Source: Clostridia bacterium (lineage in GTDB: Bacteria; Bacillota_A; Clostridia; UMGS1810). From it: a stretch of 16,137 nt of DNA. Every line of letters starts with the position of its first letter. Positions within the stretch are counted from its first letter, which is position 1. A program made the translations under genes and the position numbers. The notes beneath the pieces are model-generated. The model was given only the letters and a program-made list of their open reading frames with translations. It was not told the DNA's origin and did no database searches. Below are positions 10,793 through 16,137 of the stretch, piece after piece. The stretch is taken from NCBI GenBank assembly GCA_017437345.1, contig JAFSBJ010000028.1, positions 1-16,137 on the forward strand, given 5' to 3'.

Positions 10793-11608
10793 ATGATAAA
10801 AAAACTCATTAAATCAAAATTGTTTTTAGTTTTTATAGCTTTATTTATTATTCTATTTATAAGACATAAGCTAAATGAAAGAAATGCTTATTTTTCTCCA
10901 ACCTATGCCTATGAAAAGGTCTCTCCTTCCGACGGATATGAAAGAATATTTAAATACACAGGTCTTTCACCAAAGGGAACAGAAGATATTTTAAACGAAG
11001 GAAAAGTAAGTGAATTTGATAGACTCAACTCTCTCTATTTTGAAAAACCCAAAATAGAAAAGGAATACATTTTCTTTCCCACAACAGTTCAGGAAAGCCT
11101 TGAAAGGCAGCCCACCCCTATGGTGCCTTTAAAAGACGGTGACATTCTTGTTACCTTCAATACCCACACCCTCGACTGGCGTCACGGGCATCTTTCTATT
11201 GTGACCGACAGCGAAAGCGGAATTATTTTAGAGCATATGTCAATCGGAAACACCTCGGTTTTTAGCTATGCAAAAAAATGGGGAAGCTACCCCGCTTTTG
11301 CAGTTTTAAGGTATCCCGATGAAAAGATTTCAAAAAAAGCGGCAAAATATGCAAAAGAAAAGCTTAAAGACATCCCCTACAGTATTTTTGCCGGGATAAT
11401 AAACAAGGATAAATCTGATGATGAAAATATTGATTCATCCCATTGCTCTCATATTGTGTGGCAGGCATACAAGGCTGTTGGGGTGGATTTAGATTCAGAT
11501 AGCGGAAGAATTGTTACACCAATGGATGTGGCAAAAAGCGAAAAACTAAAGCTCGTTCAGATTTTCGGACTAAACCCCGGAGAATTTAACAATGAACTTA
11601 TGAAATAA
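10793..11608 (+). CDS. YiiX/YebB-like permuted papain-fold (NlpC/P60 superfamily, C92 type) cysteine hydrolase, membrane-anchored
   Basis: 271 residues. A hydrophobic stretch at 8-24 after a lysine-rich start looks like a signal anchor, placing the rest outside the membrane. In the catalytic part, LKDGDILVTFNTHTLDWRHG leads to HLSIV (H133), and SSHCSHIVWQAYKAVG supplies C218. His before Cys in sequence order is the circularly permuted arrangement of the YiiX/poxvirus G6R group. Members are predicted amidases or peptidases acting on cell-wall peptides or lipids; the substrate here is unknown. The stop of the Cys-rich gene and this ATG touch with no gap, so translation is probably coupled; the nearest ribosome site (AAGAGG, 10773-10778) is rather far at 14 bases. 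The flavoprotein gene follows after 12 bases. Confidence 0.75.
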   Translation: MIKKLIKSKLFLVFIALFIILFIRHKLNERNAYFSPTYAYEKVSPSDGYERIFKYTGLSPKGTEDILNEGKVSEFDRLNSLYFEKPKIEKEYIFFPTTVQESLERQPTPMVPLKDGDILVTFNTHTLDWRHGHLSIVTDSESGIILEHMSIGNTSVFSYAKKWGSYPAFAVLRYPDEKISKKAAKYAKEKLKDIPYSIFAGIINKDKSDDENIDSSHCSHIVWQAYKAVGVDLDSDSGRIVTPMDVAKSEKLKLVQIFGLNPGEFNNELMK

Positions 11609-14621: not shown

Positions 14622-14659
14622 ACTGAAAAAAGGGATTGAATTCAATCCCTTTTTTCAGT
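14622..14659 (+). terminator. argG terminator 1, a 38-bp perfect palindrome
   Basis: The 38 bases form a perfect dyad (19 + 19) centred on GAATTC. The stem ends ...GGGATTG/CAATCCC... and carries an A tract on the left and a T tract on the right, so it can act as an intrinsic terminator in either direction. It begins 13 bases after the argG stop. Confidence 0.88.
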
Positions 14660-14664
14660 ATTAC

Positions 14665-14702
14665 AGAACTCTTTTTTACATTGAAAAAGAGTTCTTGTTT
14701 TT
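14665..14702 (+). terminator. argG terminator 2 (tandem)
   Basis: AGAACTCTTTTT (665-676 in this kilobase) pairs perfectly with AAAAAGAGTTCT (684-695) around a 7-base loop, followed by TGTTTTTA. It lies 6 bases after the first palindrome. Together they isolate argG from the downstream unit. Confidence 0.65.
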
Positions 14703-14723
14703 AGTCACTTGCCATGATATAAT
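14695..14723 (+). promoter_or_regulatory. Extended -10 promoter of the 301-residue gene
   Basis: TGATATAAT contains a perfect -10 box TATAAT (14718-14723) preceded by TG one base upstream, the extended -10 pattern. A weak -35 TTGTTT (14695-14700) stands 17 bases away. Predicted start is near 14730. The -35 overlaps the tail of the second argG terminator. Confidence 0.6.
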
Positions 14724-14734
14724 ATAAATAGAAG

Positions 14735-14748
14735 CGAACAAATGTTTA
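14735..14748 (+). promoter_or_regulatory. LexA (SOS/Cheo) box at the transcription start
   Basis: CGAACAAATGTTTA matches the Gram-positive LexA consensus CGAACRNRYGTTYC at 13 of 14 positions; only the last base differs. It lies about +5 to +18 relative to the predicted start, a position where a bound repressor would block transcription. This suggests the downstream gene is induced by DNA damage. Confidence 0.55.
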
Positions 14749-14781
14749 TAAAATATAATAATTTAACTATCGCAAAAGAAA

Positions 14782-14823
14782 AAGTACATTAGAAGCTTGA
14801 AAGAAAAGCTATCTAATGTACTT
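14782..14823 (+). other. Leader hairpin 1
   Basis: AAGTACATTAGA (14782-14793) pairs perfectly with TCTAATGTACTT (14812-14823). After a 1-base bulge the stem continues with AGCTT/AAGCT around a 7-base loop: 17 pairs in all. It has no T tract, so it is not a typical terminator. It is the first of two hairpins in the untranslated leader of the 301-residue gene. Confidence 0.6.
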
Positions 14824-14827
14824 AATC

Positions 14828-14878
14828 ACGGATATGCAAAAGCAAATCCTAAGCCAATTTGTATTTTAGCATATCCGT
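14828..14878 (+). other. Leader hairpin 2
   Basis: ACGGATATGC (14828-14837) pairs perfectly with GCATATCCGT (14869-14878). With small bulges the stem continues through AAAA/TTTT and CAAAT/ATTTG to a loop around CCTAAGCC. It ends 29 bases before the ribosome site and only 4 bases separate it from hairpin 1. No known riboswitch pattern was recognised. Together with hairpin 1 it fills most of the 314-base gap after argG. Confidence 0.6.
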
Positions 14879-14922
14879 AAATTAAAAGCAAGCAAAATTT
14901 AATTTATGGAGGTAAAAAATAT

Positions 14923-15828
14923 TTGGAAAACAGATGTCAAAGATGTGACAGAGAATTGTCTGACCCCAATGCAGTGTTTGGTTGGCGTTGTGCTGAAATT
15001 TTAGGTGTATCGGGACAACTATCACAAATGGGAGCAGCTGTCTTTAGAAAATTTGTAAACGGAGTACTAAAAGCAAAAAAACTTTTTGGCAACAGTAATT
15101 TTGAGTTTACAGATAAGCAATGGAAAAAACTATACTCAGCTTTTGCAAAAATGTCATTATGGGATGGCGTTGATGAAAGAAAAGTAAAGAAAGCAAGGAA
15201 AGAGAGCTATTCTGTTTTAGATGGTTCAAAAACAAAAGCATCCGAATTTTCCGATTCACTCAAAGAATACTCCAAAGCCATTATCAAAAAAAATCCCATT
15301 TATAGTGTATGGAACGCAGCAGAAGATGCTATTTGGAAATCAGGAGCGGTAGTGCTGGACAAAGCGGGGTATCATTTATCAAGTGATTTACTTAAATTAG
15401 CAGCAAGCGGGAGTGGAAATAAATACATAGCCAAAGAAGGAAGTTATGCATCAAATTTATTAAAAAAAGATAAAGGACTAAATGATTTTGTAAAAAGAAA
15501 AATATGGGAACATGGTGAAGATAAAAACAATCCAAATCCTTCAATTCCAACTGAAACATATAAAATCCCGCTTAATAATGGAGATTTGGGGGTTGCTTTG
15601 CACAGGGTTAAAGTTGATATCAATGCCACCAAAAATTCAAACGGAGTTTGGAACGCAAAGGTAAAGGTAACAGATGAATTTGATTTTACAGAACTTGTAA
15701 ATCCACTTAACAAAGGCTCAATAAAAAATTTTGTTTTGTGGACCGCAAATGATTTTGCATATCTTGATTCAAGCATGGGATTATTAGATCCGGTTAAAGT
15801 TGAGATAACTTATTCAAAGGAATATTAA
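14923..15828 (+). CDS. Uncharacterised 301-residue protein with N-terminal Cys motif; candidate SOS-controlled toxin or bacteriocin-like protein
   Basis: I do not recognise a named family. The start is TTG (14923-14925) with GGAGG (14908-14912) 10 bases upstream. No signal peptide or membrane helix is seen. Residues 1-28 (RCQRCDRELSDPNAVFGWRC) carry C5, C8 and C23 in a zinc-ribbon-like setting with only three cysteines. Residues ~30-190 are helical and Lys-rich. From ~205 the character changes to beta-rich: PLNNGDLGVALHRVKVDI, GVWNAKVKVTDEFDFTEL, then NDFAYLDSSMGLLDPVKVEI to the end, which looks like a compact C-terminal domain. The combination of helical carrier, separate C-terminal domain, LexA-like operator and a small membrane-protein gene 12 bases downstream resembles toxin/immunity or bacteriocin pairs. 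That role is an inference. It could instead be an uncharacterised intracellular or phage-derived protein. Confidence 0.7.
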   Translation: MENRCQRCDRELSDPNAVFGWRCAEILGVSGQLSQMGAAVFRKFVNGVLKAKKLFGNSNFEFTDKQWKKLYSAFAKMSLWDGVDERKVKKARKESYSVLDGSKTKASEFSDSLKEYSKAIIKKNPIYSVWNAAEDAIWKSGAVVLDKAGYHLSSDLLKLAASGSGNKYIAKEGSYASNLLKKDKGLNDFVKRKIWEHGEDKNNPNPSIPTETYKIPLNNGDLGVALHRVKVDINATKNSNGVWNAKVKVTDEFDFTELVNPLNKGSIKNFVLWTANDFAYLDSSMGLLDPVKVEITYSKEY

Positions 15829-15840
15829 AGGGGAAGTTAT

Positions 15841-16137
15841 ATGAAAAATAAAATTGCAACAATACTTTTATTTATTCTTTTTGCAATACCAATTCCTATT
15901 TCCATATTAGTCATTCCTATGTCTATTATATGTATTTTTGGTATATTGATTGGAGAACTTCGTTTTTTTGAAATAATAAATACTTTACTAATAATGATAA
16001 TATCAACCTCATATCTTTTTATTTATGTGTATGCACTCAAAAAAACATGGTCTGAAAATAAAATTACCGCAAAAACATTTCTTCCAATAGCACATTGTTT
16101 TATGGCTTTTGTGGTTTCATTAATACTGATAAACCCA
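15841..16137 (+). CDS. Small hydrophobic membrane protein, 3' end outside window; candidate immunity protein
   Basis: An open frame of 99 codons runs without a stop to the right edge. ATG 15841 is preceded by AGGGGAAG at a short spacing and follows the stop of the 301-residue gene by 12 bases, so the two are probably co-transcribed. It shows at least three membrane segments (about 5-21, 23-38 and 43-63) and begins a fourth at about 80-98, joined by the short charged stretch KKTWSENKITAKT. I do not recognise the family. Small multi-helix membrane proteins directly behind a toxin gene are common as immunity proteins against envelope-acting toxins. A transporter subunit or unrelated membrane protein is also possible. 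Confidence 0.65.
   Translation, partial: MKNKIATILLFILFAIPIPISILVIPMSIICIFGILIGELRFFEIINTLLIMIISTSYLFIYVYALKKTWSENKITAKTFLPIAHCFMAFVVSLILINP

Follow-up and report, generated by a model that had tools for sequence, protein, structure and literature searches.

The stretch of DNA analyzed here (the window) is 16,137 nucleotides long and comes from a Clostridia bacterium (assembly GCA_017437345.1, contig JAFSBJ010000028.1). At its 3' end, argG is followed by two terminator-like hairpins, an extended -10 element, a LexA-type box, an open reading frame (ORF) for a 301-residue protein, and a membrane-protein gene that is cut off by the window end (Table 1). The original prediction took this arrangement for a DNA-damage-induced toxin with its immunity protein, and the pieces on which it relied were all recovered: two terminators behind argG (one read by eye, one found in a scan), the extended -10, a LexA box with a single mismatch in 14 positions, the ORF itself and, 12 bases past its stop codon, the next ATG. 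It had overlooked a strongly structured 5' leader, which we consider the most novel part of the locus and which would link this unit to other damage-inducible toxin cassettes. Terminator-like sites in the scan (2, versus 1.7 ± 1.2 in shuffled sequences) are not above chance in number, and the promoter scan listed none at 14715-14723, where a good -35 element is absent.

The 301-residue protein is built from exchangeable parts. A search of 5.8 billion proteins returned 124 relatives, and the best 120, once mapped, fell into three groups: some matched over the full length, some only over about residues 1 to 116-129, with other C-termini, and some only over about residues 123-301. Among the last are three of RHS type (P0056, which matches the RHS core model, P0060, and P0072, which carries the RHS name); the same domain stands behind RHS in L065, L066 and L071. 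Residues 1-60 used as query gave 75 proteins out of 78 candidates. The N-terminal domain (NRCxRC...GWRCAEILG; hereafter the NRCxRC domain) precedes at least four different C-terminal domains. The swapped C-termini, for which the prediction had proposed to look, include a C39/papain-like type (NGCEVIAAYN...LHTVAMRK; recognized by reading, no family above cut-off), DUF6973 (PF22322, by profile match) and pretoxin-like types, again by reading. One DUF6973-type protein, P0103, matches the chain of a crystallized Bacteroides fragilis type VI effector (E 1.8e-33); the NRCxRC domain thus does precede an effector domain known from elsewhere. For residues 1-116 no Pfam or NCBIfam model scored above cut-off, similarity to DUF6011 being sub-threshold only. 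Residues C5, C8, G20, W21 and C23 are invariant in the 10 aligned rows, and the model of the N-terminal half is helical. One N-terminus with varied C-termini, a C-terminus reused behind RHS and a partner whose type tracks the C-terminus (see below) mark the protein, by its architecture, as a polymorphic toxin.

Four further NRCxRC loci (L001 to L004) were confirmed with two peptide patterns, the window being the fifth, and the family is rare among genomes. The N-terminal alignment matched 1 of 21 and 1 of 28 family and order genomes around G001 and 1 of 394 around G002, in each case genomes already known. L001 lies in G001, a metagenome-assembled Clostridia genome from roe deer caecum. ArgG of the window shares 82% identity with its G001 counterpart and 83% with the G002 and G003 proteins, so that none of the three is closely related to the window genome. 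Plasmid and phage collections searched with the toxin protein gave no match, and the IMG/VR collection, for which both the N-terminal and C-terminal alignments served as queries, gave pattern matches and no confirmed relative; the idea of a phage-borne unit is accordingly not supported.

The gene behind the toxin encodes a protein that, over the 99 residues contained in the window, is identical to the 242-residue P0208. The prediction had described a multi-helix membrane protein; the helices, three or four in number, are there, but so is a large ectodomain. In the structural model (pLDDT 89), helices at residues 2-14/17-37, 42-72 and 77-107 are followed by an alpha/beta domain, presumably extracytoplasmic. 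Nothing credible was found for the partner in Pfam, NCBIfam or the PDB, and its model had no Foldseek match at E ≤ 0.001; the rows that VIA listed mostly span residues 1-108, so that the fold of the ectodomain was barely tested there. At L001, a toxin of the same type is followed directly by a homologous partner of 239 residues, and at L002 to L004, C39-like toxins are followed by lipoprotein genes with a lipobox. The conserved downstream gene that the prediction had called for is thus found in 5/5 NRCxRC loci, as a same-strand membrane or lipoprotein gene whose type tracks the toxin's C-terminus. An independent case of the pairing is L072, where a divergent colicin-M-like domain precedes an anchored copy of the same ectodomain. 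When 41 toxins (of about 60 of the C-terminal type) were set against 120 partner proteins, the length of the longest contig coincided seven times (9474, 1713, 2421, 51857, 6387, 1563 and 85623), the short ones possibly by chance.

The AlphaFold model of the C-terminal domain finds its best matches in colicin M, pectocin M, syringacin M and BtpeA. The fold looks colicin-M-like, a placement that we make tentatively; the model thus resembles toxins of the colicin M group instead of a known non-toxin family. Searched for this C-terminal type, 391 genomes of the class gave 11 matches in 10 genomes, the one in G001 being L001 itself; L073 was dropped because its ORF was read as ribosomal protein L9. 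The catalytic motif of the colicin M family is DxYDx5HR (PMC5821083). Its first half is kept as DxF/YD: D251 and D254 occur in 29/29 rows, with F at position 253 in 28 and Y in one. Across the same 29 rows, H227, D254-F255-T256 and N276 are invariant as well.

The LexA-type box recurs at L001, the sole other locus of the same type, where GCGAACAAATGTTT is identical to the window copy. In G001, a yneA-like LysM gene, lexA and recA have CGAACAAATGTTT or near variants of it in front of them. Sites for the pattern CGAACNNNNGTTY number 14 in that genome, versus 45 for its reversed control; since the control is the commoner of the two, site frequency proves nothing. Seven of the 14 sites lie at gene starts and the other seven inside ORFs. 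By reading of the proteins, the genes at box sites are lexA (L038), recA (L041) and a LysM/YneA-like gene with two boxes in tandem (L045/L046), together with the start region of a radical-SAM gene (L039), a 146-residue membrane-anchored protein (L040) and the toxin (L049). The position of SOS genes behind the same type of box in the L001 genome would place the toxin unit under LexA control. We read the box as a LexA-type operator at the promoter, conserved inasmuch as one other locus carries it. L040 (G001 contig 4, near 11226) has a second toxin-type promoter with a LexA box (82% identity over 66 nucleotides); the gene that it precedes encodes a signal-anchor protein to which no function is assigned.

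Taken together, these features make it rather probable that the unit is a DNA-damage-inducible antibacterial toxin-immunity pair, with a modular toxin of putative colicin M fold whose translation the leader probably gates. A number of observations, collected in this and the next two paragraphs, weigh against this interpretation. LexA-box matches with up to two mismatches number 8 in the window, where 15.2 are expected, and are not above chance. The box was also expected to be conserved among homologues, and is so at L001, but none lies within 500 bp upstream at L002 to L004; SOS control consequently belongs to the window subtype and not to the whole N-terminal family. The sequence checks thus support the predicted damage-induced toxin and immunity protein, with an SOS box in this subtype only. 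At L002 (7820-8000), L003 (1190-1450) and L004 (7830-8000), inspection by eye showed motifs resembling TGAGACAAAAAT and CAATTATGGGA in an apparently common promoter region, which suggests that the C39-like loci are under a different regulator.

As to the toxin domain, no sequence match to PF14859 was obtained (family scan to E 1; 10 members to E 10), and the colicin M motif lacks its HR, H260 or R261 occurring in 0/29 rows. The prediction could place the protein in no described toxin family; this holds for sequence but less so for the modeled fold, which looks colicin-M-like. The C-terminal domain would most likely act at the outer face of the target membrane, by cleaving lipid II or a similar lipid-linked precursor of the cell wall. 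One could also envision that the toxin reading is right and lipid II is not the target, the fold acting instead on a protein, on teichoic acid carriers or on membrane lipids of another kind. The loss of half the motif and the fixation of other residues in its stead speak for this alternative, yet DxF/YD is retained throughout, named ColM bacteriocins with degenerate motifs exist (PMC5821083), and an envelope target is suggested by a partner that is anchored in the membrane and carries an ectodomain. We regard a different target as possible, though the less probable choice.

Within the order of G003, 14 of 147 genomes had a match to the partner profile (L030 in the membrane part only). In the loci read, the ectodomain is often carried by a lipoprotein-like ORF and no toxin of this kind was noticed alongside, so that the domain is not confined to the toxin pair. 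A simple lipobox pattern fits 2 of 4 lipoprotein-like starts tested, which suggests that the partner's ectodomain sits outside the cell. The ectodomain genes of L023 to L029 and L031 to L036 (DTHGGFxGDG-like) often lie, by reading, beside a small membrane protein and a helix-turn-helix gene, and are possibly orphan immunity genes. The occurrence of this family without toxins might also mean that the pair acts in its producer, in cell-wall or division control during damage, and does not kill rivals; YneA-like SOS genes, after all, also act on the envelope. Against such a role stand the marks of polymorphic toxins, namely swapped C-termini, RHS fusions and a partner type that tracks the C-terminus, as well as the rarity of the N-terminal family, and we hold it to be improbable.

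How the toxin would leave the cell is a separate matter. No signal peptide was seen in the protein and no lysis gene in the L001 neighborhood; release would probably occur by lysis or by another, unassigned route. The same gap exists for colicin M, for which no lysis protein is identified and the release route is left unexplained (PMC8469651). Contact-dependent export through a type VII (LXG-like) system, or through another secretion system, would dispense with lysis; the small size of the toxin and its helical N-terminal half are compatible with it, and the swapping of C-termini resembles that of LXG toxins (PMC5555719). Yet EssC (profile TIGR03928) was above cut-off in 0/3 draft genomes holding NRCxRC toxins, weak evidence given that they are drafts, and no LXG model was among the family-scan matches. 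Type VII export is therefore not favored, and we think it unlikely.

Table 1. Features of the toxin unit and its surroundings (positions in the window)
Feature	Position	Strand	Basis or remark
Two terminator-like hairpins, separating argG from toxin unit	14622..14695	+	14622-14659 inverted repeat by eye; 14665-14695 by scan
Extended -10, TGATATAAT	14715..14723	+	Read from sequence; kept in L001
LexA (SOS) box, CGAACAAATGTTTA	14735..14748	+	1 mismatch to CGAACN4GTTYG; just 3' of presumed transcription start
Conserved structured leader RNA (putative)	14771..14912	+	Folding, alignment, covariation
Leader hairpin H1	14782-14823	+	
Leader hairpin H2	14828-14878	+	
Optional leader helix H3	14875-14886 with 14898-14909	+	Takes up first GG of Shine-Dalgarno
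Shine-Dalgarno GGAGG	14908-14912	+	
Toxin gene, 301 aa, TTG start	14923..15828	+	ORF list and homologue search
N-terminal NRCxRC domain, residues 1-116	14923..15270	+	Common to proteins with unrelated C-terminal domains
C-terminal toxin domain, residues 124-301	15292..15825	+	Colicin-M-like fold by model; also ends RHS proteins
Presumed immunity gene, cut by window end	15841..16137	+	Membrane helices; full protein = P0208

The leader comprises two hairpins, H1 and H2, and an optional helix, H3, in which the 3' flank of H2 pairs with the stretch that ends in the first GG of GGAGG. The window copy folds much better than shuffled sequences (z -6.8; L001, z -3.35). Between window and L001, identity amounts to 49/53 columns in H2, 29/43 in H1 and 32/40 in the H3 region; for the toxin gene, 39/79 fourfold-degenerate sites and 56% of third positions are identical. 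A DNA search of 391 class genomes together with a covariance model produced a set of 14 leaders: the window, L001, L102 (= L078), L103 (L079), L104 (L080), L105, L106 (L081), L107 (L082), L108 (L083), L109 (L084), L110 (L086), L125, L126 and L127. The DNA search matched 25 genomes; 9 were kept (G001, G481, G499, G525, G564, G565, G575 with two copies, G690 and G720) and the other 16, whose matches were short at 20 to 50 bases, were dropped, G726 (L085) being the only one of these that was read. The covariance model matched 2 of 9 genomes (G594, at 37 bits, uncounted) and 6 of 51 (three contig-end matches of G544 uncounted). Scores are lower for L126 (75 bits) and L127 (56 bits); the region upstream of the L004 toxin reached 26.5 bits (E 0.057) and was excluded.

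Covariation was counted in the first 11 of the 14. In H1 and H2, 96.6% of cells pair; doubly changed pairs number 6 (2.2 ± 1.2 in shuffles, 1/500 of which reach 6) and doubly changed cells 13 (3.7 in shuffles, 0/500 reaching 13), bearing in mind that shuffle controls overstate support among related sequences. Folded singly, six of the 11 gave z values of -3.6 to -8.4. For H3, counted over 13 leaders (L127 left out, arms cut by hand), 83% of cells pair versus 79% in shuffles, with 6 doubly changed cells versus 2.1 (1/500), so that this helix is supported more weakly than the other two. Slid controls paired at 55% or less in both counts. These counts lead us to regard the leader as a conserved two-hairpin RNA with covariation. 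Two results tell against the structure or its presumed action. Further pair types number 10 versus 10.3 in shuffles (387/500) and lend no support; and the idea that H2 and H3 strictly exclude each other, as alternative states of a switch, is weakened by the fold of L001, in which H2 and a shortened H3 coexist, and by the mean predicted openness of GGAGG, which ranges from 0.25 to 0.83 among the 11. No leader matched Rfam at gathering score (window to E 5; eight loci to E 1), and a known riboswitch or Rfam leader was rejected. Nor do we claim that the leader encodes a conserved peptide: several copies have a short ORF whose end falls at or before H1, and its sequence is not conserved. The start codon behind the leader is TTG in the window (14923), ACG in L001 (7998), apparently ATA in L110 (near 6235), and mostly ATG elsewhere.

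The genes behind the leader differ. NRCxRC toxins follow in 2/14 cases (window and L001). In nine others the leader precedes a DUF4417 gene (eight by Pfam, L105 by reading), behind which lies a small ORF, overlapping or within about 70 bases, in 9/9. Seven of these small ORFs (L103, L104, L105, L106, L110, L125, L127) have, close to their start, a tag resembling FGNTxG or FGSTxG; those of L102 and L108 lack it. Toxin or immunity domains are recognizable in three small proteins: L105 has Ntox37 (28.2 bits, cut-off 27.8), L125 a ParB-like nuclease domain and L110 a fused DUF2247; five others, when scanned, had no family above cut-off. In L103, L104, L106, L125, L127 and others, the DUF4417 gene and the tiny FGNTxG-tagged ORF are followed by a small downstream gene. 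The L107 leader precedes a tail-spike-like protein (PF12708, 24.9 bits, below the cut-off of 27); at L109 and L126 the leader is followed by a short ORF, behind which lies a peptidase-like gene. A LexA-type site is present at the promoter of three leaders (window, L001, L107). Upstream of five (L102, L103, L106, L125, L127), all of them DUF4417 cases, lies a gene for an ImmA/IrrE-type protease, with an Xre-type regulator above cut-off in L103, L125 and L127. ImmA and its repressor form a damage- or signal-responsive switch in ICEBs1. Both regulator types would fit damage induction, LexA being the one tested by sequence. The DUF4417/FGNTxG type of cassette was not seen in the three papers retrieved for DUF4417, PMC12704722 among them, and literature searches outside subscription papers and supplements turned up no account of NRCxRC toxins, of the leader or of DUF4417 beside toxins.

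It is tempting to speculate that the leader represents a new class of cis-acting RNA that marks and controls damage-inducible toxin cassettes, together with a new NRCxRC delivery domain and Gram-positive colicin-M-fold toxins; to us, the case for and against this wider proposal is evenly balanced. A single leader with a helix sequestering the Shine-Dalgarno sequence would then serve unrelated cargo as a common translational switch for released weapons: NRCxRC/colicin-M-fold toxins and a tail-spike-like protein under LexA, and, downstream of Xre and ImmA/IrrE regulators, DUF4417 with small toxins that carry the FGNTxG tag. The same diversity of cargo could result if the leader were a DNA element, a recombination anchor or the end of a mobile cassette, behind which toxin cassettes are swapped, and H2-like hairpins do lie near integrase genes on the L101 and G544 contigs. 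Covariation in H1 and H2 does not discriminate here, as a hairpin conserved as DNA would covary alike. All 14 copies, however, are read on the same strand as the following ORF, GGAGG stands shortly behind H2 in the first 11 (the leaders were cut at GGAGG, so that its place was chosen, its presence not), and H3, which includes the Shine-Dalgarno region, shows some covariation. A DNA element thus appears doubtful, and we prefer the view that the leader is an RNA that probably gates translation of damage-inducible cargo. As for its source, one leader pattern gave no match in IMG/VR and a shorter one gave 15 stretches, of which only L101 is leader-like, beside an integrase-like gene. H2-like hairpins precede integrase-like genes in L101 (3443-3550) and L129 (among L101 and L128 to L130); an origin in integrative elements is therefore possible, and the leader may have come from them.

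The unit could work as follows. LexA, bound to the box at the transcription start, would block the promoter; upon DNA damage, RecA-driven cleavage of LexA would release a bicistronic mRNA, as the box and the SOS genes of the relative lead us to infer. Pairing of the leader's 3' flank with the Shine-Dalgarno region would probably keep translation low until a second signal or upstream translation opens it. The N-terminal part, a zinc-ribbon-like and helical domain, is a candidate for release, docking or delivery. The partner would act as a membrane-anchored immunity protein whose ectodomain, outside the cell, blocks incoming or self-made toxin. If this is true, colicin M chemistry, mainly known from Gram-negative bacteriocins, operates in gut Clostridia under SOS control, and such toxins have their own kind of immunity ectodomain. 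The leader would provide a shared genetic handle, an RNA search revealing damage-inducible toxin cassettes whose proteins have nothing in common, and the release and silencing of such proteins in Gram-positives would become directly testable questions. Elsewhere in the window, positions 10793-11608 encode a 271-residue protein with weak matches only, permuted papain-like amidases among them (PF05708, E 0.09).

These properties invite comparison with several known systems. DNA-damage-induced protein bacteriocins of Gram-positives include BCN5 and megacin A-216, SOS-inducible examples from clostridia and bacilli; they are other proteins under other regulators than the window unit. Structured RNAs immediately in front of a toxin gene, as in the ToxI-ToxN type III toxin-antitoxin system and others, are also described in Clostridiales (PMC8040213); here, in contrast, ToxN is absent, the leader extends as far as the Shine-Dalgarno site, and several unrelated genes are found behind it. 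TelC of Streptococcus intermedius is a Gram-positive toxin that cleaves lipid II and against which TipC gives immunity (PMC5555719), but its fold differs from that of ColM (PMC5821083) and it is a type VII substrate, whereas the window toxin has no LXG match. BtpeA-BtpiA (PDB 9jdi), compared by entry title only, is a type VI pair of Bacteroides fragilis and thus involves a Gram-negative effector. A new colicin-M-like domain with BamE-like immunity has been described in other polymorphic toxins (PMC12419801). The closest parallel lies with the colicin M family itself (PF14859; colicin M, pectocin M, syringacin M, PaeM). The window toxin differs from it in showing no detectable sequence similarity, in lacking HR, in its N-terminal domain, in its Gram-positive (Clostridia) origin and in a partner ectodomain for which no named family was found; the likeness consists of DxF/YD and, tentatively, of the C-terminal fold as modeled. 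Colicin M, too, belongs to an SOS-controlled transcription unit with no lysis protein identified (PMC8469651), and its immunity proteins are membrane-associated with varied topologies (PMC5821083), as the partner described here is likewise membrane-bound.
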